NCBI GenBank assembly: GCA_001630475.1
Contig: KV419398.1
Location: 1,029,825 to 1,093,824, forward strand
DNA: 64,000 bases
Source: Sistotremastrum niveocremeum HHB9708
Lineage: Eukaryota > Basidiomycota > Agaricomycetes > Sistotremastrales > Sistotremastraceae
Reading direction: 5' to 3'
Shown here piece by piece: positions 26,970 through 49,518 of the stretch (positions are counted from its first letter, which is position 1; every line of letters begins with the position of its first letter). Under the pieces are notes generated by a model. That model saw nothing but the letters and a program-made list of their open reading frames with translations, was not told the origin of the DNA and searched no databases. A program made the position numbers and the translations under genes.

Positions 26970-27132
26970 GGTCGCGAGCTTAGCATAAGCGAGATAACAC
27001 GAACCAAACAAAATAGAGTAAAATCAACCACGATCACGTGAGATGAGTCTCGGACGTAACGTCGCTATTCCCGAGAAGTGTAACGTTGTGACACTGCCTC
27101 TTTCGGCGTCACACAGCTTGTCATCCTCACCC
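26970..27132. promoter_or_regulatory. Bidirectional promoter between SAP protein and SYF2
   Basis: 163 bp separate the two divergent start codons. It contains a CACGTGA (E-box-like) site near 27034-27040. Both upstream in-frame ATGs (27011 on - and 27043 on +) fall inside this interval. Confidence 0.4.
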
Positions 27133-28640
27133 ATGCCTCCTCGCAAGACCAAAGCCAAAGCGCCACCTAAGAAGGGGAAGGGAAAGGCCAAAGAAGTCGA
27201 GGCAGTTGAAGATGAGAAGATGAAAGTCGAGCCAGTGGAGGAGGCCAAGCCGAAGGTTGAACCGGAACGGCCTGAGGACGTGAAGATGCAGGTCGACCCG
27301 CAGGAACCCATTGTGGACGAAAAGCCAAAAGTCGAACCTCCCATCGAGCCTTCAACAGCATCTGTCATCGTTGAGGAAGCTACTCAGGTAGTTTCGGACG
27401 CTGTACAAGCTACGAAATCTGCCGTGTCGGATGTGGCTGATGCAACTGTCGAATTCGCGGAAACACTCAGTGGGACGAAGGCAGCGGACGAACAGCCCGC
27501 TGTCGAAGCATCTACATCGAAACCCGATCTGAGTGAGACTATTGTGGAGAAGGTCGAGGATATCCGAGATGCAGCTCAGGAATTCGTGGAGAAGATTGAC
27601 GATGCACGGTCTGAACCTGAGCCTGCGGAGGCAGGTCCCAGTCAGCCTGCTCTGAGTCCAGAGGAGCGTGCAAAGAAGATGGCTCAGTTACGAAAGAGAA
27701 TGGTACGACGCCAACTATCTCAATCCCATATCTCACCCTAACAAAATCTACAGCTCGAATCATCACACGCGAACAGATCAGCAGTTATCAACGAAGCCAC
27801 CACCGCAAAAATAACTGTAAAAGAAGCAGCGCGTCTCGAGAAACAACGCAAACTCGCTGAAATGCTTCGATCAAAAGCCCAAGCGGAGGAAGAAGGAAGA
27901 GATCAAGACGAAGAACGAGAAAAGAATTGGCAATACAGTATCGAAGAGAACGATGCATGGGAGAAGCGAATGAAGCGGAAGAAAGCACGAGCTGATTTCG
28001 AATTCCACGGTTTGTCAAATCCTCTCTTAATCCCACCTACTGTAGGCCTTATACTTACACCATCAATAGACGACGTCACACAAGCCCGTCGAAAATACAA
28101 GAAAGATCTAGATCTGCTCAAACCAGATCTAGTAGCTTACAACCGTCAAAAAGAAATAGCTATGGGTCTCGCACCAGGTACACTTGTCAAAACAGGCGAA
28201 TCAGGCTCTAAAGCGCTCGTACCGACATCACAACAACAACAACTCGCTGCAGAGAGTTTGTATCGCGATGCGAATACTCTGATATATGCCGATAATAAGC
28301 CGAGCGAGGAAGCTGTTGATAGGGTCGTGTCGAAGATTAACGGAGAGTACGTCCCTGATCTCCTTAGTCCAATTTTGATTAGGATGCTCACTTTCGTCAT
28401 TTTTAGTTTGGACAAGAAGAATAAGTTCTCACGGAAGAGAGCAAATGAAGATGAAGGTGATATCACCTACATCAACGAGCGCAATCGGGTCTTCAACAAA
28501 AAGGTACGCCATTCCCCTCCGTTCCGTTCCACATCGGCAACTCAACTGAACGTTCCTCATCTCCACTCCAGATCGCCCGTTATTACGACAAATATACGAC
28601 AGAGATCAGGGCGAGCTTCGAACGAGGGACAGCAATATAA
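27133..28640 (+). CDS. SYF2: Pre-mRNA-splicing factor Syf2
   Basis: NineTeen-complex/Prp19-associated splicing factor. Exons 27133-27702, 27754-28009, 28070-28346, 28407-28503 and 28572-28640; 422 residues. The Syf2 core is unmistakable: EKNWQYSIEENDAWEKRMKR, ADFEFHDDVTQARRKYKKDL, DLLKPDLVAYNRQKEIAMG, LYRDANTLIYADNKPSEEAV, DEGDITYINERNRVFNKK and IARYYDKYTTEIRASFERGT. The N-terminal 190 residues are an extension rich in Lys, Glu and Pro with repeated KVEP-type units, followed by MAQLRKRM at the usual beginning of the family domain. An in-frame ATG at 27043 would add 30 residues. It is an intron-rich gene that itself encodes a splicing factor. Confidence 0.94.
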
Positions 28641-34361: not shown

Positions 34362-37300
34362 CTAAGATCCCTCCGCCAACTCAAAGTACGCCTTGAACAT
34401 CGGCTCACGCGCCAATCCACTCCTCAACACGACATTATGCACGTGCAAGAAGAGAGCAGGGAAGCGCATCGTGAAATACCGTAGGAATCCTTCGGGTAGA
34501 GTTCCAAGATGTCTCTTCACATTATCTGGTAAATCCTGATAATGATGTTTCTGCCCCATCATCAGCACCCACTCCACACCATTATCACAAAAAGAGAAAA
34601 GACGAACTTTGTTACGTAGAGCACGAAGAAGATCCTGTACGCTCTTCCCATTATATTTCCTAAACTTTCCAAGATTCTCGATGAACGTTCGATCGAGCCG
34701 TGAATGCCAGTCGTTCCCGACGACATTGTATGCGCCGTCTTCGAGCATTACGAGCGGCTCTTCTGGAGGATCCCGATTCATAATTTCGAATCTGTCCGAT
34801 GCGTCTTGGAGGAATGTAAGTCGACGAGCGGGGGTCCAGAAGAAAGGGTGCATGAGACAATATGTCGTGTCGGGCCTGCATTCCATTTGCATCAGCAGAG
34901 ATTTTGGAGAGTAAATGGAACGCACCTTCGTGATGATTCTGGATCGAGCATCTTACTGATAAGATCTTCAGCTTCTACACCCTCTTCTCCAAATACATCC
35001 AACCCCGTTAAATTCCTCGCGTCTTTAAGAATGTTCAACTCCCTCTCATACCGATCTCCATAAGGATGCGATCCAGTCGTCAACGTATAATAATAAAGAC
35101 ACCCCAGCGCGAAAATATCCACCGCTTTCGTCAACCTCGTTCGATTCGGGTTAGGTGTCGGTTGAACGCCATTGATCACCGTCCCTCTAGAAGACTGCGA
35201 CGCATCGTCTCCTCCGCCCAATTCATCCAATTTGACTTCCCCACGAAGGATCTCGGGAGCCCTCCATCCTACAGTTCCAGCAGCCATAGCTCCATGAGCA
35301 GTAGGCAAAAAACTCGTCTCGTCAATCTCCAATTTCTTACACAGTCCGAAATCAGAGATCAACATCCTATACGAACCAGGTGCTTTTCCTTTCGGTAATG
35401 AAACGAGGATATTGGGAGGTTTGATATCCCTATGAATGATTTTGAGTCCGTGGAGATGTCGGAGACCTTGGGTTATTTGGATGAGGGCTTTGGAGCGGTC
35501 GAAGCCGTTTGCGATCTCTTGGAAGGCGGGGATGTCGGGTCGTTCGACTATGTCGGCTAGGGAGGCGGGACAGAGTTCGAGGGCTATGTAAAGGAAGTTG
35601 TTCCGGGCTTCTTGGAAGTAGTAGCGGATGACGTTGGGGTGATCGTCGGATTCTTGGAGGAGAGTCACTTCTCGAGCGGCGAGAGTGACAAAGTCTTGTA
35701 AGAGTCGCTTGACAGCGACTGCACGACCTTGGAACGCTCCTTTGTACACTACAGTACCGTGTGATCCGAATCCTACAACAGCCGTCAGTTACGCTCAATC
35801 AACGAATCGAGATACATACCGAGAATCTCTTCCGACACGACCAAACTCGTAGAAGGTGGAGGTTGCACAGGCTGTGGTTTCTCCTCAATAATAAGTGGCT
35901 TCAAGTGCTCCTCAAGAGCCCTCTCCACGATCTCAAATTCCTCGCTCGACTTCCCTCCACTCCCACTCCCACCCGCACCATTCGCAGCAGCAGCAGCATT
36001 AATCGCACTCGCCTTCCTCTTCTTCGCTCGCGTCCTTCCTCTGTTCTTTTTCTTCTTCTCCCCCGATCCTTCAGTTTCGTTATTTTCGGTCTCTCCTTCG
36101 CCTTCTTCAGCTGTTTCGTCGGGCTGAGTGGAAGGAGTGGCTGGAGGATCGGATGTAGGGATAGGTGGCACGACGACGAGGGAGGGTGATTCTGGAGCTT
36201 CGGGTGGAGGGACGTATACGGGTTCTGAGACGGGAGCTGGAGGAACGATTTCGGGTATTGAGGGAGGTTCATTGGTAGGGTGGATCTGAGGGAGGGCGTC
36301 GAGTTTCAAGACTGGTTCGGAAAGAACCGAAGTGTTCTCAGGGACGCTGGAGGGGATGGGTTTGGCTAGGAGCCATCTTGCAGCGAACAACATTGCAAGG
36401 AGACTCGATACCAGTACGCCAAGGAACGGGTATGATTTGCTCTTCCAGAATCCTGGAGTCATGATCGCCGGTTCTGTGGGGTAAGCGGGAGGCGAAGCAT
36501 TACTGCTCATAGCGTCGCCTTCGCCCAGAGTGGGTATCTCAGGTCCATCAATGAGATGAATATCCCTCGAAGTACCCAACTCTCTGCTTCCGGTCAAACA
36601 AAGTCTCGTCCGACATCGATCGTCGTCGGGATGAGTTTCATGTCCTTCGGCAACTTTGTAGGAATTTCCATCGGGTCCGTCGATCGTTTTGTACCGATTT
36701 CGGGGAGGCGTTTGTTCGAAGATTACGAGAGGGTAGTTCTCGGGACTCATGGCGTAAAGTGAATCTTCGATTAGCCCGACATAAGCCTGATGTGATCTCC
36801 CAGGAGGATGAGTGTGGGAAGGCATTATTTGTGAGAGACGAGGGACGGGTTGCTGGAGAATAAAGGGAGTGCCCCGGGAAGGATCTTGCACCAAGTCAAA
36901 GACAGCGACACTAAGAAGAGAATATTCAATTAGACGAAAGCGTGAGACAAATGGGTTTGACTCACATCGTTTCCTTCATCTGATTGACCCACATAAGCTC
37001 ACTTTTACTCTTTCCATCCGTGTCGTTGGGAGTACGGAAAGAGAAGACTTGACCATTCGGCAGAACTTGCATGTATTGATTATCAGGAGTCTTCTTCCAG
37101 CTATTCTGCCTCGCTCTATCCACGTTGTTTGGTCCATACGCAGAGAAAGTCAGATACTGGGTAGGTTCGTCGCGTGTATGAATTTGGAGGTGATAATCTG
37201 TCAACGGAAATTGAGCGCACATAAAGATATTCGGGGTAATGAAACAGACCTGTCCGGCCAATGTAGATCTCTGTTCGAGTCTTTGGTTTCGTGGGCTTCG

Positions 37301-37961
37301 TGCCGTCGAGTTCATCGAGATCAAGGACACTTGGATACTCAGCGGAATGAGGAGATTCCCAGATGCACTCAGCATCCGGATTGATGACTCCGGTAATCCG
37401 GCCTGTCTCCAACTCAAGAACCAACAACGTCGTCTCCTTCTTGCCCACAAATACTGTAGCCTCATCTCCCGGAAGGTATATAGGCCCCATCTCAATTAAT
37501 TGGGGTATAGAAAGCGGAAGTTTCGCCAGAGGGGCTGTAGGGTCGGCGTCCGCTGGAAGGACGTAGATATCGCCGGACTGGGGTTCGACGATGTACAGCT
37601 CCTTCCTTTCGTCGAATAGGGGGTCGTCGGGTGAGATGTCTGGGTGTTTGGTCTTCACGAGAGGCGTAAGGGTCGAACTGTTAGAGTCCTTGTCGGTGTG
37701 CATGGACCATAACAGGTTCCCACTAGCTCTATCGACGGCATGGAATTTACCATCTACGCTGGCTAGTAGAACAGTGTCGAGGAGCTGCAGATCTTCAGCA
37801 TTGGGCTGAGAAACGGAAGCAGTGTGAGTGTAATGGCGAGCAAGATGTGAGTTCTGGTCTGAGCGTTTGGTAGCGAGGTCGAATGGACTAGTAGACTGGG
37901 ATATTGCAAGTTTAAGAAAAGCTGGCAGGAGAAACAAGTAAATGTAACCGGTGAAGGCCAT
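34362..37961 (-). CDS. IRE1: IRE1 unfolded-protein-response sensor kinase/endoribonuclease
   Basis: ER transmembrane sensor that oligomerises on unfolded proteins and splices the bZIP (HAC1/XBP1/Cib1) mRNA. Exons 37961-37250, 37197-36966, 36910-35820, 35772-34926, 34875-34608 and 34550-34362; 1112 residues versus 1115 in yeast. Signal peptide MAFTGYIYLFLLPAFLKLAI; luminal start LLDTVLLASVDGKFHAVD and ASGNLLWSM; transmembrane YPFLGVLVSSLLAMLFAARW near residue 475-495. Kinase: FGSHGTVVYKG loop, AVAVKRLL, IIHRDIKPPNILV, ISDFGLCKKL, GWRAPEILRG. KEN RNase: VQDLLRALRNK joined across an intron to KHHYQDLP, so the catalytic Arg-Asn and His are present. Introns 3-5 (just before the glycine loop, before PDTTYC, and RNK/KHH) recur in the chimera at 46594-49518. 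Confidence 0.96.
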
Positions 37962-38538
37962 CGAGAGGCATCACTCGAGTAGATCACACTAGTACTCAGC
38001 CACGACACTCAAGCTATTTCTCCCACTCGGCAAACTCCGCTCCACTGCGCTTTCCCACTGCCAGCAACTCTAATCCAGAGTCACCCGACACCTCCAATAT
38101 TCCGCGTTTATTCTAGGTGTGCTCAAGTTTGCCTTCATCACTGAATCATGTCTACAGTTTGCGTTAAAATTGCTAGGAGACGTTCTGCAGCGACCCAACT
38201 GAAGCCCTTGGATGACCGGGATCAATTGTGCCCAACTCATCTCCTTCCCCGGTTACGCCGAACCCGCATTCCCTGTGATTGATTCGAACTAGAAAACCTT
38301 GAATTTTAGGCTTTCGACACCGTTGATGGTGCTCCATCTGATTTGATTGTTTTGACCAGCCATATATCATCTCCGACTATCACTGGTTGCGTGCGCCCAG
38401 CCGATGTCGAACGACTGCTTCAGTTCTTGTCAGCCTGATTGATTTATCTGACATCACTGGAGACGATGTTGACTGCGTCTCAGCTTTGACTGGCAACTCG
38501 TCTTCTTCCGCTGACTCGCTGCCCTGGTGCGACGACCA
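37962..38538. other. Intergenic region upstream of IRE1, with a possible orphan exon
   Basis: Contains the IRE1 promoter. At 38309-38432 (+) a TTTTAG acceptor is followed by a 40-codon open frame ending in a stop (AFDTVDGAPSDLIVLTSHIS at its start, then VRPADVERLLQFLSA); an ATG at 38148 opens a short frame upstream. This may be a tiny gene or a decayed exon. I could not assign it. Confidence 0.3.
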
Positions 38539-39215
38539 GATCTCGGGCTTGATCCCCTCACATTGGCGCTATGCGTCTATTTGCTATTGACTTCCCCCGG
38601 ATAACCCTGCAATTGCCTCAAAGGTTATCACTGAGGCCAAGAGAATTATGGACAGTGTTTTATCGAGGAAGCAAAGTGCAGAGATAATGTCACCCTTCGG
38701 GTCGGGTCGGAATTCCTTCGATTGTCGACTGTGCGCCTAATGGCAGTCAGTCAGTGCATTCATTCTCTTTCCTCTTGTCGTGAGGCTCTGAACAACCTCT
38801 TCAGCTGAGCCATCTCCACCCGCGTTCTTTCACAATCAAAATTTCAGTTCGCCCATTCCCAAAGACGAGCACGCTATGTATGAGCAGTTTCGGCTACGAG
38901 AGTAGTTTGAAGTGAGGGGATGGGTTTCCACGCCCTGCTAGGCTGTTGTATACCGTTCGGTAGGACGAATACATCTGGGCCTATTGAGGTAGGAAGCCCA
39001 TCTACTGAGGCCCGCTAACCGCGGGCACTGCTTTTACTTTTTGTGAGCGGATGGTATGGTTCACCTCTTGGCTATTCGAACTCACAAATTTCCACCACAT
39101 TGTAGGGAAAAGTGGGCATGATGCATGATGTTTGGTTTGGCGAGTGCCTGTATATCGTTGAATTGAAATGCTGTTCGGACGCTCATTGACAGCTTTCTCT
39201 TTTCATTATGTCCTG
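38539..39215 (+). repeat. Dispersed noncoding repeat, copy A
   Basis: One of three diverged copies in this window. Landmarks shared with copies B and C include CCACCCGCGT-CTTTC-CAATC (here 38817-38840), GTTCGGTAGGACGAATA and GCGGGCACTGCTTTT. Copies A and B lie head to tail about 30 bp apart, beginning with a similar ATGCGTCTATTTGCTATTGA segment. No open frame is conserved, no terminal inverted repeat or target-site duplication was found by eye, and the family is not recognised. Orientation is arbitrary; boundaries are approximate. Confidence 0.75.
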
Positions 39216-39249
39216 TCTTGACTCCAATCAATAAAAAGTGTGCATTTAA

Positions 39250-39900
39250 CGAGATTCTGGGCTTAATCCCATGCGTCTATCTGCTATTGATCTGCATTTA
39301 AACAACCGCTGACTCGTATCTCGAAGACTACGACTGACGCTAAAAGTATCAGGAGTTTTTACATGTCCCTTTCGGGGTCGGGTCGGAATTCCTCCAGTTG
39401 TCGACTCTGCGCGCAGTGGCAGCCCAGCAGTAGCCCAGCCAGTGCACTCGATTGCTTCCCCTTGTCTTAGCGATAAGAACGACCTCTTCAATTGACCAGT
39501 CTGCCACCCGCGTCCTTTCACAATCAAAAATTCAGTCCACCCTTCCCCAGAGACGAACAGTGGAAGTAAGCAAGTTTCGGGCTACGCGAGTAGTCTGAAG
39601 TGAGGGGTGTGCGCAGTCAGCCGTGCCTGTAGGCTAGGTTAATCCCGTTCGGTAGAACGACTAACACTGGTCTATTGGCTAGATTCCATATCCTGAGGTT
39701 CGCCGTGTTGGCGGGCACTGCTTTTTTGGAGAGCTCGATGTGGTTCAACTTCCAGCCATTCAATCCCGCAAAATACCATCACATCGTTAGGGGCATTGAA
39801 AGGGTGCGCATGATGGTACGTTTTGGCGAGTGTATGTGTCTTGATCAATCGAATAATGAGTCGGGACGATTGTCGTTTGGTGTTTTTTTTTCATATCATG
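39250..39900 (+). repeat. Dispersed noncoding repeat, copy B
   Basis: Second copy, same orientation as A. It shares GGGTCGGGTCGGAATTCCT, TTGTCGACT, CCACCCGCGTCCTTTCACAA, GTTCGGTAGAACGACTA, GGCGGGCACTGCTTTT and ACCATCACATCGTTAGGGGC with A or C. It ends near a T-run at about 39885-39892. It is noncoding, and divergence from A is substantial, with small indels throughout, so the duplication is old or the copies arrived separately. Confidence 0.75.
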
Positions 39901-40573
39901 AATTGTATATTCAACATTATTCACACAGTGGTATCTGAAGATCATCTCGCCGAACTCCATGTCTATTGAAACATGCAACAAGCGCGATAAACTGCAATAT
40001 CAATGATAAAAGAATCTTACCTGCTGAGCTCGAGAAAACTCCAGCAAAGATGTATCAAATTTGCCTGGAAAATTCCTAAGGATGGTTGCACAGTGTGCCT
40101 GCGATTTCGTCAACGCAAACGTCCAGTTCGACCTCGCAGGAATATTAGGACGCGGTTTGGTTCGCAAGGACTGTAGGAATGGAATGCCGAAAGAAGTGCC
40201 GAGCCCTTGCGGCGATAGCGGATCTCTTACCGAATCTATTCTCAAACCATCATCATGGTGTCTGAGAACGTACAGGAGCTCGTACAGGTCCCTCGGTTAT
40301 GTGTATACAAAGAATACACCGGCGCATTTGAAGGCTCGAACCATGAGGTATAGAGACTAGAGCGAGGCGGTTGATATACTGTGTCGCGACGTCGTTCGAT
40401 CCCCAAAATGTCTCAGTCGACGACCTTATGGTCTCGGATGAACACTCGACCATTGTCGCGGAAGCAAACTCACCTCCGCACCCAGCTATAACTTTCTGAA
40501 GCCCCGATAACATGTTTCAGTCCTTTACTCCTTTGCATTTCATTATCCCATCAACCCTCCATGCCAGTGACTT
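39901..40573. other. Intergenic region before the seven-TM gene
   Basis: About 0.67 kb. Opposed open stretches at 40061-40360 (+), 40000-40245 (-) and 40253-40513 (-) show no domain. Includes the promoter of the seven-TM gene. No supported gene. Confidence 0.45.
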
Positions 40574-41877
40574 ATGGGCCTCCCTGACATTAAAGGTGTG
40601 AACGGTAAGCGTCACTTTCTGCTCTGTGCATCCCACGAGCTGTATGCTCATCATGTTTCTTTGTTTCAGAAATCGGTGCTGGTCTCGCTGCTTTCGCTTC
40701 ATGTGTTACTATCTTCCGCCTGGTGTTTCGTTGGAGGAAGAGCAGGCTATGGTGGGACGATGCATGGGCGTTCTTCGCCATGCTGAATGTCATCGTCACT
40801 GCATCCCTAGTCTGGGTAGTCTACGCACCTAAATGTGAGTCTTCCGCCCTTACATTCATGATACATGAGACTGACACTGTTTTGCAGCCTCGAATGTCTC
40901 GCAACATTCTCGTGTTGCTTCATTCCTCATACTCGAAGTCGGTTTCACTCTCGTCATCTGGGCAGCTCGACTATCCATTCTCTTCACCGTCATCCGTATC
41001 ACGCACGATGTGATGCAAAATCGACTCTTATACGCTACAGCCGCCATGTTCTGTCTATTCGCCCTCATCCTCAGTGCACAGAAATTCTGGGTCTGCATCC
41101 CTCAATCCGGCTGGAAAGACATCCCTGGAGCCAGCTGCAATCTAGGTGCTCAAGTTGCGATCACTGAAGTAGTCAGTGAGTACTCCGTATGTTTTCCCAC
41201 CTGAAACTTGCTGAATAGGTTCGCGGTAGCCGATATCATCGGCGACACAGTGCTCATAATCGCCCCAGTTCGACTTATATGGCACATCCGACTCTCAAAA
41301 CCTCTCCGTGTCCGTCTGATATGCGTCTTCTCCATGAGCATCCTCACGACTCTCGTATCCCTCGTTCAAAACTATTTCCAAATACACCGCGGCGGAATCC
41401 GCAATTTCATCGTGTCTCACGTCGAGGTATTTACCCCCTTCTTTTAGTCTCATTTCCATATCCTGACCTGGCCTCTAGATGGCTACAGCGGTCACAATCT
41501 GCAACCTTAGCGTCGTCGTTGGAGCATTGTACAGATTTTTCCACCATTCCGATTTCGATTCGGAACATTCAGACCACGGCCAGGGCGTCGTCACTGTTGG
41601 GTCTGCGAACACTCGTCGGCGCTCCCTGGAGTTTGCTATTCCATCCGATCTGCCATCTGACATATCTACATGCGACGCGAGCACGGAAGAGTCTTCTCAT
41701 CCTTCGGATCCCGAGAAAAAGCATGTTGAAGAGTCTGAGGAATGGAATCCGGATTCTTACATTGAAGAAGAGTTGAAGCGCATTTCAGAGGAGGATAGCG
41801 GAACAGATGAGGGGTCTTCGAGCAGCGAGCCTCGACCTGAGCCTCGGAGAAGACACAGTATCTTATCACCTTTTTAA
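40574..41877 (+). CDS. Seven-transmembrane protein, fungal rhodopsin-domain type
   Basis: Integral membrane protein resembling the abundant fungal 'rhodopsin domain' family; ligand and function unknown. Exons 40574-40604, 40670-40834, 40888-41175, 41230-41426 and 41479-41877; 359 residues. Seven hydrophobic segments can be followed: IGAGLAAFASCVTIFRLVF, WAFFAMLNVIVTASLVWVVY, FLILEVGFTLVIWAARL, LYATAAMFCLFALILSA, VVTDIIGDTVLIIAPVRLIW, LICVFSMSILTTLVSLV and TAVTICNLSVVVGALYRFF. The segment EVVTDIIGD at TM5 is family-like and defines the third intron. The cytosolic tail is long, acidic and Ser-rich (EEELKRISEEDSGTDEGSSS). The very short N-terminus MGLPDIKGVN comes from a 31-nt first exon. Confidence 0.78.
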
Positions 41878-42244
41878 ACCATCTTCTTGCATGTAGACAC
41901 ATTTACGGTCAATACCGCGCAATAGGGATTTGGCAAGTCTATCGCATTGAGGATTCTACTGCACGGAGGTTTTTGGACCAATCAGTGTTGCTTATAGGTT
42001 ACGGCTCAGTTGAGAGACGATCAAATGTTGTCAAGAATATTGTGATTACATCCCGTTCACGGGGTATCATATAAATGCGTCTAATCAGAGAATACATGCG
42101 TTCCGTACACAGTCATAAAACGAAAAATGAACACGAAGCCGATGCAGTGATGAAAGTCATAATGTAGTTCGAAAGCGGATGAAGAGAGAGATGCTCCAAG
42201 AGCGAAAGCGAAGATGAGAAAAGTGAAGAGATCGTCCAGAAGAT
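41878..42244. other. Convergent 3' region of seven-TM gene and CLP1
   Basis: 367 bp between convergent stops; 3' UTR sequence only. No further feature is seen. Confidence 0.5.
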
Positions 42245-43594
42245 CTACGATCTAGAATCCGATGAAGCGATGGCAGTCGATGAGTGTTCTTTGACCAAGC
42301 CACAGGCAGCATATATGACGGCCCATGTATGCTCGATGGTCCGCCAGAGCTGCTCGTCCCACACACCGACGCAACAAGCGTTAGCCCAAACGCCATGCAC
42401 TCGGAATGTGAAGCGGGTCAAAAGCTCGGTGTTCGACGTCAACTCGAGGAGTAGTTTGCGCGCGATTTGTTCGATAGTTCCAGTTTGTTCGAAAATGGAG
42501 TAGTCGAAAGGGCAAAGGAATTTCATCATGGTCCGAGAATCGCCCGTATAGAGCCAGTTCATCAGAGCAGGCCATGAAAGGGGGTCGGGAACGGATATAG
42601 CGACGGACGGAACGGGTAATCGTCCGTATTTGCCGCTTTTGTCTTTCTCGATATCTACGATGTCTGCGCGTGATGGGGGTAAAGTCGGTAGATGGGAACA
42701 ATGGGCAGCAAGGATGAGGGCATGAATGGGGAAGAGGGCGAATTTGGGGCCTCGGGGGTCAGAGGAGGATCCGGGCTGCTGACGTTTATAGACGGCAAGA
42801 GCATGAGTGGGGGGAACAATGTTCAAGTCGTTCATGACGAGATGGAGCTCCTTCGGGAGAGTCCTGCTATTGGTGGGAGGTACAACAATACGAGTATGCT
42901 GCTGATCTCTGCATAGCCTAAGATAGGGGACTGGTTAGACAAGAGAATCGGCACAATAAAGAACAATAGCTCACTTGAGCCCGAGCTTTGCAGGACCATG
43001 GAGCTCCCTCTGTACATATCGATGGGGAACCTGAGCTAAATCTCCGCCCACCGCCTTAAGAGCCGCATCGTTGTAGCTGGGAGGGGCAGGACGTTGCAGG
43101 ACCTGGGGGATTTTAAACTGGAAGTCCGTCCATCCAAGGCGTATAGGGATGGTGACGGACGACTCCTCAGGCATAGAAGGCTCGGCTTCGTTCATCTGAA
43201 CATCACCAGGCGAGCGTTCGACGAGAGGGGCGCGTTGGGAAGAGGGAGTGGAAATTTGAGGACGAGGTTGTTCGTGAGCAGAGGTGGGAGTCTGGGGCTG
43301 AGGAGAGCGAACAGCTCTTGTACGCCTGACATATGCTTCAGTGGCGGAATGACGAGTCCTGGACCTGGATTTGGTGCTGCCGGGTTTGCTCAACGAGCGA
43401 CGTCGCGAGGGGGAGATAGGCGAGGAGTGCGCGGAGTTTGATTTGACATCAGGGTAGGTATTTTCCTTATTGAGTCTGTTGGTGAGCATTTCGTCAAAGA
43501 GCTCGTCGGGCGAGTGAGGCGGGGGCGTTGCAGGAGGAGACGAGGCGGACGAAGTTGGGGACAAAGAGCGAATTGATGCCTGCATCTCGCCCAT
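42245..43594 (-). CDS. CLP1: Clampless1 (Clp1) homologue, regulator of dikaryon development
   Basis: Basidiomycete-specific developmental regulator: required for clamp formation in Coprinopsis and for dikaryotic growth in Ustilago, where Clp1 binds the UPR bZIP factor Cib1. Two exons, 43594-42975 and 42917-42245, 430 residues, one phase-2 intron. The N-terminal 150 residues are Ser/Pro/Arg-rich. The conserved part begins FKIPQVLQRPAPPSYNDAAL, LAQVPHRYVQRELHG, then IVVPPTNSRTLPKELHLVM, FALFPIHALILAAHCSHLP, WPALMNWLYTGDSRTMMKFL and RVHGVWANACCVGVWDEQLW, which is the Clp1 signature. The protein ends soon after (ASSDSRS). Start chosen at MGEMQASIRS; an ATG-like upstream extension is possible. A paralogous domain occurs in the chimera 3 kb away. 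Confidence 0.85.
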
Positions 43595-46593: not shown

Positions 46594-49518
46594 ATGCCAG
46601 GTCGCAAGAAGAAGAACAAGCGGCCGAAGGCCAAACGACGTGCAAGCTCAAGTGTATCGGAATCAACTCACGACGATTCACAAGACTCATCTCCAAACGA
46701 ATCTACTTCGCCTCTATCACCGCCATCAGATAATGTCCAGGTCACATATGCAGATCAGCTACCCACCGTCACTTTGCCTCGGCCAGAGCCTGTCGCAGAC
46801 AGTCATGCCGCTCTACACGCACTGGAACCGGAATTGGCTCAGTTTCCTATTGCACATGTGAAAGATCAGCTATTGTCTACAAGTCCTGAGTGCTTTATCT
46901 CACCACGTGAGGCAGGGATATCATTCTGAATATATCCCCCTATAGGCTCTATGCAAACATAAGTCGGTTGCGATTCAACACTCCGAAGATTGGTGCTTCA
47001 TCTGCATTACCGACCGAAATACAAGTATCTATCAATGGACAACCAACAGCCGATCTGCCCAGCCATATCATTGCCGTCCATTCTGACGCAGAATCATCAT
47101 CCCAATCTCCAGTTACATTCCATCCAGTTCACCCCCTTATAATCGCATCACATTGCGCAGCTATACCGCCTTTCATAAAACCGAAGCTAGAAGGCTTCTC
47201 TTCGTCCGAGGGTAGTGGAAGTTCCACACTTTCCGTCCCGATACTTCGTGTTGCACTCCCGGATCCATCAGCATTTCCATCCTTGCTTCTCTGGATCTAT
47301 AATCGAAATCCTCGCACCCTTCTTACAACAATCCTGAATCTCCAAGCGCCACTGGTTGATCCCGCCCACATTGACAGCTATACGCCGACAGAACTTGCGG
47401 CGGTACTTGCGGACACATTTTCCACAAGCGCTCTTGCACGCATCGCTCAGCATGTCCACGGTGTATGGGCCGATGCATGTCGCTTGGGAGTATGGGAGCC
47501 GGATTTGTGGGCAACACTTGAGTTGGCCGGTGGTGCAGTTCAGGTCGCTTGGAACGCCGTTCAGTCCAACAAATCACTGAGCTCGGTGCTTCCGGCCTTG
47601 CCATACACGAACAGGATCACCAAAATGATTGCAACTGGTGGCGACGAAAGTAATATGATCATTGGGGGACGGTCCCCCGATGGCGATATCGCAACCGTGG
47701 CTGAAATCCCGAACTATACCTCGATGATCTTCGAGGTGGACCCTTCCACCCCGCCTCGCATTGATGAGCTCGAACTGGAAGATGACGATGGGTACATGAC
47801 GTCGTCGACTACGACACGAAATCAGGTCATGTCGCCACCTGGGTCGCCGCTGCGGAATTCACTTGGATTATCCTTGCCGATCAGCCCGGAATCACAGACT
47901 GGGAACTCCCTTGGTCTATCCATCTCTATTCCCGGCTCACCCATTCTGAGCCCGACTAGTCTGTCGATTCCACCACCTACTCCGACTGCAGCTTCCATCT
48001 TGACTGTATCCACCGCTGTCCTGGGTTGGTCCATGTACCTCTATTATAATTGGTCGTTCTGACCTCCAATATCAGGGTATGGCTCTCAAGGGACTATTGT
48101 TTACAAAGGCGAATTTCAAGGACGCCCCGTTGCGGTCAAACGGCTTCTCAAAGCCTTCGTCACAATCGCCAGTCGCGAGGTGTCCCTACTGCAAGAGTCA
48201 GACCATCACCCGAATGTCATCAGCTACTACTACCAGGAAGCAAGAGAGGACTTTTTCTACATCGCCCTCGAACTATGCCCGGCCTCCCTCTACGACCTAA
48301 TTGAGCGTTCCTCAGAAGAGCACGTCACTGATCTTCTCCCTGCCTTCGACCCGAAGAAAGCCCTCCGGCAGGTCACGCACGGACTTCGACACCTCCATTC
48401 TTTGCACATCGTTCACCGAGATATCAAACCTCAGAATATCATGGTGGCCATGCCACCCGCTGCCGCTAAGAGCAACGGGAAAGGCAGATCAAGATCTCAC
48501 TCCAAGGCCAAAGACTACGAGTTGAGGATGTTGATATCCGACTTTGGATTGTGCAAGAAAATGGAGATGGATGAGTCGAGTTGGAGGGCGACAAGTGATG
48601 GGCAAGGAGCGGGAACATGCGGGTGGCGAGCTCCTGAGTTATTACGCGGAGAAGTCAATCTGGATGTCAACGCTCAGCCTGACTCCGATGAACCTCACCC
48701 CCCTATGGCAAACGGTCGTGGAAAGACGCCCGTACGAAGACTCACGAAGTCCGTAGACATCTTCTCATTGGGCTGTCTCTTCTTCTACACCTTAACGAAC
48801 GGCGGCCATCCGTTTGGGGATAGGTATGCGAGAGAGATGAACATTATTAACAATGAGAAAAACCTTCGGAAATTGGAAGGTTTAGGAGATGATCAGCTTC
48901 AAGCGGCCGATCTTATCGAACGAATGTTAAATCCGGATTCGACGTTAAGGTGCGTTCGGGCTCTTTCGATGAAATTTCCATAGAAGCTGAACTTACGCTC
49001 TGTAGACCTGATACCTCGGCGTGCCTCGCACATCCCTACTTCTGGAGTCCTTCGAAGCGTCTATCGTTCCTATTAGACGCGTCAGATCGATTGGAGTCAT
49101 CTAACTGTAAACCATCCGACAAGTTGGTCAAGCTCCTCGAAGAAGATTCTCAGAAGATCGTCGGAACAGATTGGACGAACCGGCTGGACAAAATGCTCAT
49201 TACCAACATTACGAAGTTCAGAGATTACGACACCGGCAAGATCCAAGATCTACTTCGAGTCATTCGGAACAAGGTACGAGCGCCCCTGCAAATCCGTAGA
49301 CGTATCAACGACTAACGGGCACCACATAACAGAAACATCACTATCAAAGTCTCCCTCAACACATCAAGAAACGTCTGGGACCTCTACCGGATGGATATCT
49401 TTCTTATTTCACTTCCCGCTATCCGGCTTTGTTAATGCATATTTATCATGTAGTTGCTCGTGGTGGATTGGACACCGAGGAAATGTTCCAATCATATTTT
49501 CGCCCTGATGATGCTTGA
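46594..49518 (+). CDS. Clp1-IRE1 chimera: Clp1-like domain fused to IRE1-type kinase/KEN ribonuclease
   Basis: Exons 46594-46889, 46946-48024, 48076-48949, 49006-49273 and 49333-49518; 900 residues, all phases agree. Residues about 45-310 are Clp1-like (RPEPVADSHAALHALEPELA, ALPTEIQVSING, FHPVHPLIIASHCAAIP, LLWIYNRNPRTLL, HVHGVWADACRLGVWEPDLW). A Ser/Pro linker of roughly 150 residues follows. The 51-nt intron 48025-48075, with a CTGAC branch-like site, joins STAVLG to YGSQGTIVYKG, the kinase glycine loop. Kinase motifs: RPVAVKRLLKAF, HIVHRDIKPQNIMV, ISDFGLCKKM, GWRAPELLRG. RNase: IQDLLRVIRNK joined to KHHYQSLP, so Arg-Asn and His are kept. There is no signal peptide, luminal domain or transmembrane segment. 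The kinase exon has an in-frame stop immediately upstream of its acceptor, so it needs the Clp1-like exon. Confidence 0.82.

Follow-up and report, generated by a model that had tools for sequence, protein, structure and literature searches.

A gene on the plus strand of the window (the whole 64-kb stretch of DNA that was analyzed) almost certainly encodes a Clp1-like region joined in frame to a complete IRE1-type kinase/RNase module: the five-exon model, when spliced and translated, gave exactly 900 residues and a stop codon (Table 1). Within approximately 15 kb of it, each half has a relative that is a gene in its own right, a full-length IRE1 for the C-terminal half and a stand-alone Clp1-like gene for the N-terminal half, and for this reason the fusion is regarded as genuine, old and maintained rather than as an error. 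The initial annotation had proposed this in-frame arrangement, which was borne out by the 900-aa frame and by the neighboring IRE1, whose structure backs the junction; the occurrence of relatives of both halves in the same window was absent from its findings.

The fusion is known from one locus, and no description of a Clp1-IRE1 fusion was found in the titles and abstract openings retrieved from the open-licence literature. The whole of the evidence would be best explained by a soluble, ER-detached paralogue of IRE1, placed under the control of a Clp1-like region, derived locally and kept by selection, a reading that we consider reasonably probable.

Table 1. Features of the Clp1-IRE1 fusion gene and of its neighboring relatives.
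Feature	Position	Strand	Details
Clp1-IRE1 fusion gene	46594..49518	+	exons 46594-46889, 46946-48024, 48076-48949, 49006-49273, 49333-49518; 900 aa
N-terminus, Lys/Arg-rich then Ser/Pro-rich	46594..46776	+	10 K/R in 16 residues
Clp1-like region, residues ~62-309	46777..47576	+	contains intron 46890-46945; full alignment covers residues 9-309
Low-complexity Ser/Pro/acidic linker	47577..47972	+	fusion point here, within a single exon
IRE1 linker end and protein kinase domain	47973..48949	+	intron 48025-48075 inside; IRE1 alignment starts at residue 442
Kinase end and KEN-type RNase domain	49006..49518	+	intron 49274-49332 between RNK and KHHY
Intron 1 of fusion	46890..46945	+	phase 2, codon 99; aligns with the sole intron (codon 207, phase 2) of the Clp1-like gene
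Intron 2 of fusion	48025..48075	+	51 nt, phase 1; same site as IRE1 intron 35819..35773
Full-length IRE1	34362..37961	-	1112 aa, 6 exons; relative of the fusion C-terminal half
Stand-alone Clp1-like gene	42245..43594	-	430 aa, 2 exons (43594..42975, 42917..42245); relative of the fusion N-terminal half

Domain content of the fusion gene

Pfam searches of the individual exons identified Pkinase on the kinase exon of the fusion (E 1.3e-33) and Ribonuc_2-5A on its last two exons (E 4.9e-21 and 6.3e-17). In PDB, the sequences nearest to the kinase/RNase half were those of yeast and human IRE1, yeast IRE1 being the best (48% identity), and all 16 distinct sequences retrieved at E up to 1e-60 were named IRE1.

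For the first two exons, Pfam yielded a chance match alone with exon 1 (E 0.7) and zero matches with exon 2 at E up to 1; no ankyrin repeat was detected in either exon at this threshold. From the base composition, a stop-free exon 2 would be expected by chance with a probability of approximately 1e-6.

Relatives of both halves in the vicinity of the fusion

Frames of at least 170 aa, read from stop to stop, were listed across all 64 kb, yielding 38 frames. The full-length IRE1 shows a hydrophobic N-terminus, a luminal region, a transmembrane segment near residue 478, the kinase and the RNase. The stand-alone Clp1-like gene is located 3 kb from the fusion and is oriented head to head with it.

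In two-sequence searches, the fusion was identical to the neighboring IRE1 in 248 of 460 alignment columns (54%, E 1e-164; 54-57% across measures) and to the stand-alone Clp1-like gene in 89 of 335 columns (27%, E 2e-30; 27-29% across measures). The alignment of the N-terminal half with the Clp1-like gene had a score of 289, compared with a mean of 43 (s.d. 7) and a maximum of 70 for 500 shuffles.

The neighboring IRE1 has five introns, the last three of which, in the part coding for the kinase and RNase, are in phases 1, 2 and 0. The introns in the kinase/RNase half of the fusion are in phases 1, 2 and 0 as well and occupy the same places. With intron 1, all four introns of the fusion match those of the relatives in position and phase; intron 1 is weaker evidence than the other three, since it was picked among nine possible joins partly by this match.

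An arrangement of this kind could also be produced by an assembly misjoin of two unrelated loci, which we hold to be highly improbable: the reading frame is kept across the join, which falls within an open exon; no repeat of at least 22 nt is found at the join; and the pieces, with no more than 27-57% identity to the neighboring genes, are not mis-assembled copies of them.

The junction intron and the start of the kinase

The initial annotation had assigned to the junction an intron joining the two halves in phase, and this intron was supported by comparison with the neighboring IRE1, which has one at the same place and in the same phase. When 30 joins (15 GT donors combined with 2 acceptors, stops not excluded) were scored against the IRE1 junction, the join 48025^48075 obtained the highest score, 81. 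The runner-up join scored 63 and contained a stop, the best open alternative, with its donor at 47914, scored 62, and the unspliced sequence scored 57. Splice rules alone permitted 20 open joins, GC donors included, and it is therefore the intron position common with IRE1 that decides. The fusion donor, GTTGGT, is unusual; the neighboring IRE1 uses GTTCGT.

An in-frame TGA had also been described ahead of the kinase acceptor. It is present, at 48060-48062, one base off the place that had been given for it (48061-48063), and lies within the sequence CTGAC (48059-48063). This branch-like site begins 17 nt from the 3' end of the fusion intron and 16 nt from that of the IRE1 counterpart. The TGA is considered intronic because the neighboring IRE1 has a counterpart intron with the same CTGAC branch-like site.

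The further claim that the kinase exon is unable to start alone held in part. The kinase frame has its first methionine at residue 581, beyond the catalytic loop, and therefore the whole kinase cannot start in that frame; an internal start in exon 2 is possible, with in-frame methionines ahead of the kinase at residues 326, 336, 359, 383 and 394.

This could mean that the two halves also, or mainly, act apart, intron retention producing a truncated Clp1-like protein that ends in WSMYLYYNWSF, and a transcript start in exon 2 producing the kinase/RNase alone. The exon 2 methionines, the unusual donor and an intron whose 51 nt are a multiple of 3 and include an in-frame stop are all in agreement with such an arrangement. 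It is opposed by the intron position common to IRE1, with the same branch-like motif, and by a single exon that carries both the Clp1-like region and the end of the IRE1 linker, and we consider it quite unlikely.

Two features of the junction were observed in addition. An alternative in-frame join, 47914-48075 (162 nt), also yields LG/YGSQG and drops the end of the linker; it may represent a splice variant. Read-through of 48025-48062 appends the WSMYLYYNWSF tail and a stop, the tail being mildly hydrophobic (peak 1.29).

Divergence and selection

Over 435 codons, the kinase/RNase half was 56.6% identical to IRE1. By codon position (1, 2 and 3), the identity was 65, 77 and 37%, compared with approximately 25% for shuffled sequences; dN was 0.36 and dS was saturated. 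For the Clp1-like half, codon-position identity was 39, 62 and 29% over 204 codons.

A Tajima relative-rate test with yeast IRE1 as the outgroup counted 34 fusion-only changes versus 39 IRE1-only changes (p 0.56). Against yeast IRE1 (2rio) the fusion scored 375.1 bits and the neighboring IRE1 371.5. Against human IRE1 (4yz9) the fusion score was lower than that of the neighboring IRE1 (313.8 and 330.2 bits, respectively), from which the fusion may be somewhat more diverged. The duplicate looks old and constrained, with a rate of change at most slightly faster than that of IRE1.

Decay of a duplicate into a pseudogene would share the duplicate origin, but it is at odds with the 900 open codons and the kept introns, with divergence biased towards third positions, with the conserved catalytic residues (see below) and with a rate not detectably above that of IRE1 against yeast; its probability is close to negligible.

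Origin of the fusion

On the minus strand, the stand-alone Clp1-like gene precedes IRE1 and is read in the same direction, and the fusion keeps that order on the opposite strand. The simplest history would appear to be an inverted duplication and a deletion. The block of Clp1-like gene and IRE1 would have been copied in inverted orientation; everything between the end of the copied Clp1-like gene and a point shortly ahead of the IRE1 kinase would have been deleted, which fused the halves in frame long ago; and selection would have kept both halves of the fusion since.

DNA similarity between the fusion and IRE1 is confined to the kinase exon, where it forms three blocks of 107-227 nt with 70-72% identity, and a search of the flanks of the fusion gave no match. 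Since the similarity is restricted in this way and the flanks are unmatched, the local origin is something that we infer. The idea that the locus forms part of a longer inverted repeat was rejected: between the fusion and IRE1, the opposite strands match in kinase coding DNA alone.

Collections not meant for fungi, which are uninformative as to how widespread the fusion is, were searched as well. In viral contigs, the kinase query found one locus with 26% identity, from 3 pattern matches; the Clp1-like region gave no alignment among 27 pattern matches in viral contigs or among 29 in prokaryote genomes.

Identity of the N-terminal half

The label Clp1, used for the fusion N-terminal half and for the 430-aa stand-alone gene, is a presumptive one, and U. 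maydis Clp1 presumably belongs to the same domain family as the N-terminal half. A Pfam scan of exon 2 of the stand-alone Clp1-like gene gave no match.

A BTB-like fold, guessed by eye for the Clp1-like region, was rejected, having support neither from Pfam (no match for exon 2 at E up to 1) nor from PDB, the models or Foldseek. The PDB profile search with this region gave a single match, not BTB (E 0.31). Structure prediction, made from two sequences, was poor, with a mean pLDDT of 50.7 for each of two models, and Foldseek, run with the fusion model only, returned 0 matches at E up to 0.001. Because the models are poor and the fold search was empty, oligomerization through the Clp1-like region is a guess.

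The N-terminal basic stretch resembles, by eye, a nuclear-localization or RNA-binding sequence. In fungal IRE1, a basic RNA-docking box is reported to lie in the linker (PMC4279078). The possibility that the basic stretch of the fusion is a transplanted copy of this box found no specific support: its basic cluster scored 45 against the IRE1 linker, an unrelated ORF (27022-27738) among 461 ORFs scored higher (47), and 2.2% of 5000 block shuffles reached the score. With simpler shuffles, the score was reached by 0 of 2000 shuffles of the target and by 0.2% of 2000 shuffles of the query. A relationship between the linker of the fusion and that of IRE1 was rejected, 94% of 500 shuffles being as good.

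Catalytic residues and dimer contacts

The catalytic residues of the kinase, namely the catalytic lysine (Lys480) and the aspartates of HRD (Asp574) and DFG (Asp614), are present in the fusion, as are those of the RNase (Tyr824, Arg837, Asn838 and His842). We take the human equivalents to be K599, D688, D711, Y892, R905, N906 and H910, with numbers placed by motif.

The back-to-back dimer of human IRE1 is described as having two intermonomer salt bridges, D620-R627 and E621-K706 (PMC7736581). At human positions 620/621/627/706, the neighboring IRE1 has D/D/R/R and the fusion has D/H/S/R, the changed residues being H502 and S508; yeast IRE1 has D/D/R at the equivalents of 620/621/627. Each kinase salt bridge would therefore be without one partner in a fusion homodimer.

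At the RNase interface, the residues corresponding to yeast 992/1059 (positions mapped by count) are D/K in both the fusion and the neighboring IRE1. D/K is reported as the S. pombe-like pattern, found in most IRE1s and tied to a more promiscuous RNase (PMC8104961). In yeast, disruption of the back-to-back interface IF1C is reported to have abolished RNase function (PMC4279078).

Loss of the salt bridges together with retention of the RNase-RNase pair fits a module that would not pair by itself and would depend on the Clp1-like part or on another partner. The lost salt bridges could equally be compatible with a weak or inactive RNase.

Alternatively, the fusion could act as a brake: soluble and IRE1-like but poor at forming dimers, it would bind full-length IRE1, the bZIP mRNA or the partners of Clp1 with no activation. 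This would agree with the replacement of back-to-back salt-bridge residues by H502 and S508, and a mixed dimer with IRE1 could retain half of these contacts. A pure brake, however, would not need the kinase and RNase catalytic residues that were checked and found to be kept, and the half is not detectably faster evolving than IRE1 against yeast. We regard such a role as rather doubtful.

Predicted location

The fusion N-terminus is MPGRKKKNKRPK; the protein begins MPGRKKKNKRPKAKRR. A 19-residue hydropathy scan of the whole 900-aa fusion reached a peak of 1.23 and detected no membrane-like segment, the two hydrophobic segments of IRE1 reaching 1.98 (transmembrane) and 1.72. An ER-luminal sensor was searched for elsewhere in the window by tblastn with residues 1-520 of the neighboring IRE1, which found itself alone (E up to 0.05).

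Because no membrane-like segment was seen, the fusion would be soluble, cytosolic or nuclear, and would be unable to detect protein misfolding inside the lumen of the ER. It is likely to be both soluble and catalytically competent, as judged from its sequence.

Proposed mode of action

In the soluble paralogue favored here, the Clp1-like part would be the input in place of the luminal sensor. The abundance and the binding partners of the Clp1-like part, set by the mating/dikaryon programme, would cause kinase/RNase units to assemble. In the absence of ER stress, the RNase would then cut mRNA, either a Hac1/Cib1-type bZIP mRNA or, in a decay mode, others. That the RNase is gated by Clp1 in this way is put forward tentatively. 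The complete account, in which a soluble IRE1 has had its stress sensor swapped for Clp1, sexual development drives mRNA cleavage, the gene came from a local duplication of two nearby genes belonging to one circuit and the self-pairing contacts were lost, is possible and somewhat speculative. An activating link is not favored by the finding that expression of clp1 in U. maydis is reported to lower spliced cib1 mRNA (PMC6490947).

Clp1 of U. maydis is reported to interact with Cib1, the bZIP whose mRNA is processed by Ire1, and to alter the stability and phosphorylation of Cib1 (PMC6490947, PMC6918084). The binding of Cib1 that the initial annotation had invoked is published for Ustilago Clp1 itself, but not for this diverged copy. 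In those reports Clp1 is a protein on its own, with Cib1 as the point of contact between it and the IRE1 branch; here the Clp1-like region is covalently joined to the kinase/RNase, and the fusion would by analogy physically join two members of one circuit. If this is true, such a natural covalent fusion would imply that the contact between Clp1 and the IRE1 branch is direct and of long standing, and it would offer a handle for testing that contact.

Comparison with known systems

The fusion resembles the neighboring IRE1 in its kinase and KEN RNase, in its intron sites and in the catalytic residues common to IRE1. It differs in having no luminal sensor or membrane-like segment, in the Clp1-like region placed in front and in the changed salt-bridge residues.

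RNase L consists of ankyrin repeats, which sense 2-5A, followed by a kinase-like domain and a KEN domain. Its resemblance to IRE1 has been noted (PMC8104961). As in the fusion, an IRE1-type output module is under a different soluble input domain; the input there is ankyrin and 2-5A, whereas here it would be Clp1-like, and the kinase catalytic residues are kept.

Arabidopsis IRE1C is described as a sensor-less IRE1 paralogue whose role lies in the development of the male gametophyte rather than in the response to ER stress, and a sensor-less Arabidopsis IRE1B drove mRNA decay and not bZIP60 splicing (PMC6788458). IRE1C is, as the fusion, an IRE1 paralogue minus the sensor domain. It differs in being a plant gene of independent origin, and no added regulatory domain is mentioned for it in the available text of that source.

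In kind, the fusion is most likely comparable to RNase L or Arabidopsis IRE1C. If so, it would be a fungal counterpart to RNase L of animals and IRE1C of plants, with the IRE1 output module governed by a non-ER input. With the Clp1-like gene, IRE1 and the fusion close together, the origin of a signalling fusion could be traced within one locus.

Other features of the locus

Approximately 4.3 kb separates the full-length IRE1 from the stand-alone Clp1-like gene, which has the same orientation (34362-43594), a notable linkage of two interacting pathways. From its gene content, the window is presumed to come from a basidiomycete. No Rfam family was found above threshold anywhere in the window. 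Between the two genes, a multi-exon frame on the plus strand (40580-41840) resembles, by eye, a fungal rhodopsin-like membrane protein. Beside IRE1, at 38687-39853, four direct-repeat pairs with a spacing of 676-692 bp are 75-79% alike and form two tandem blocks that look non-coding.
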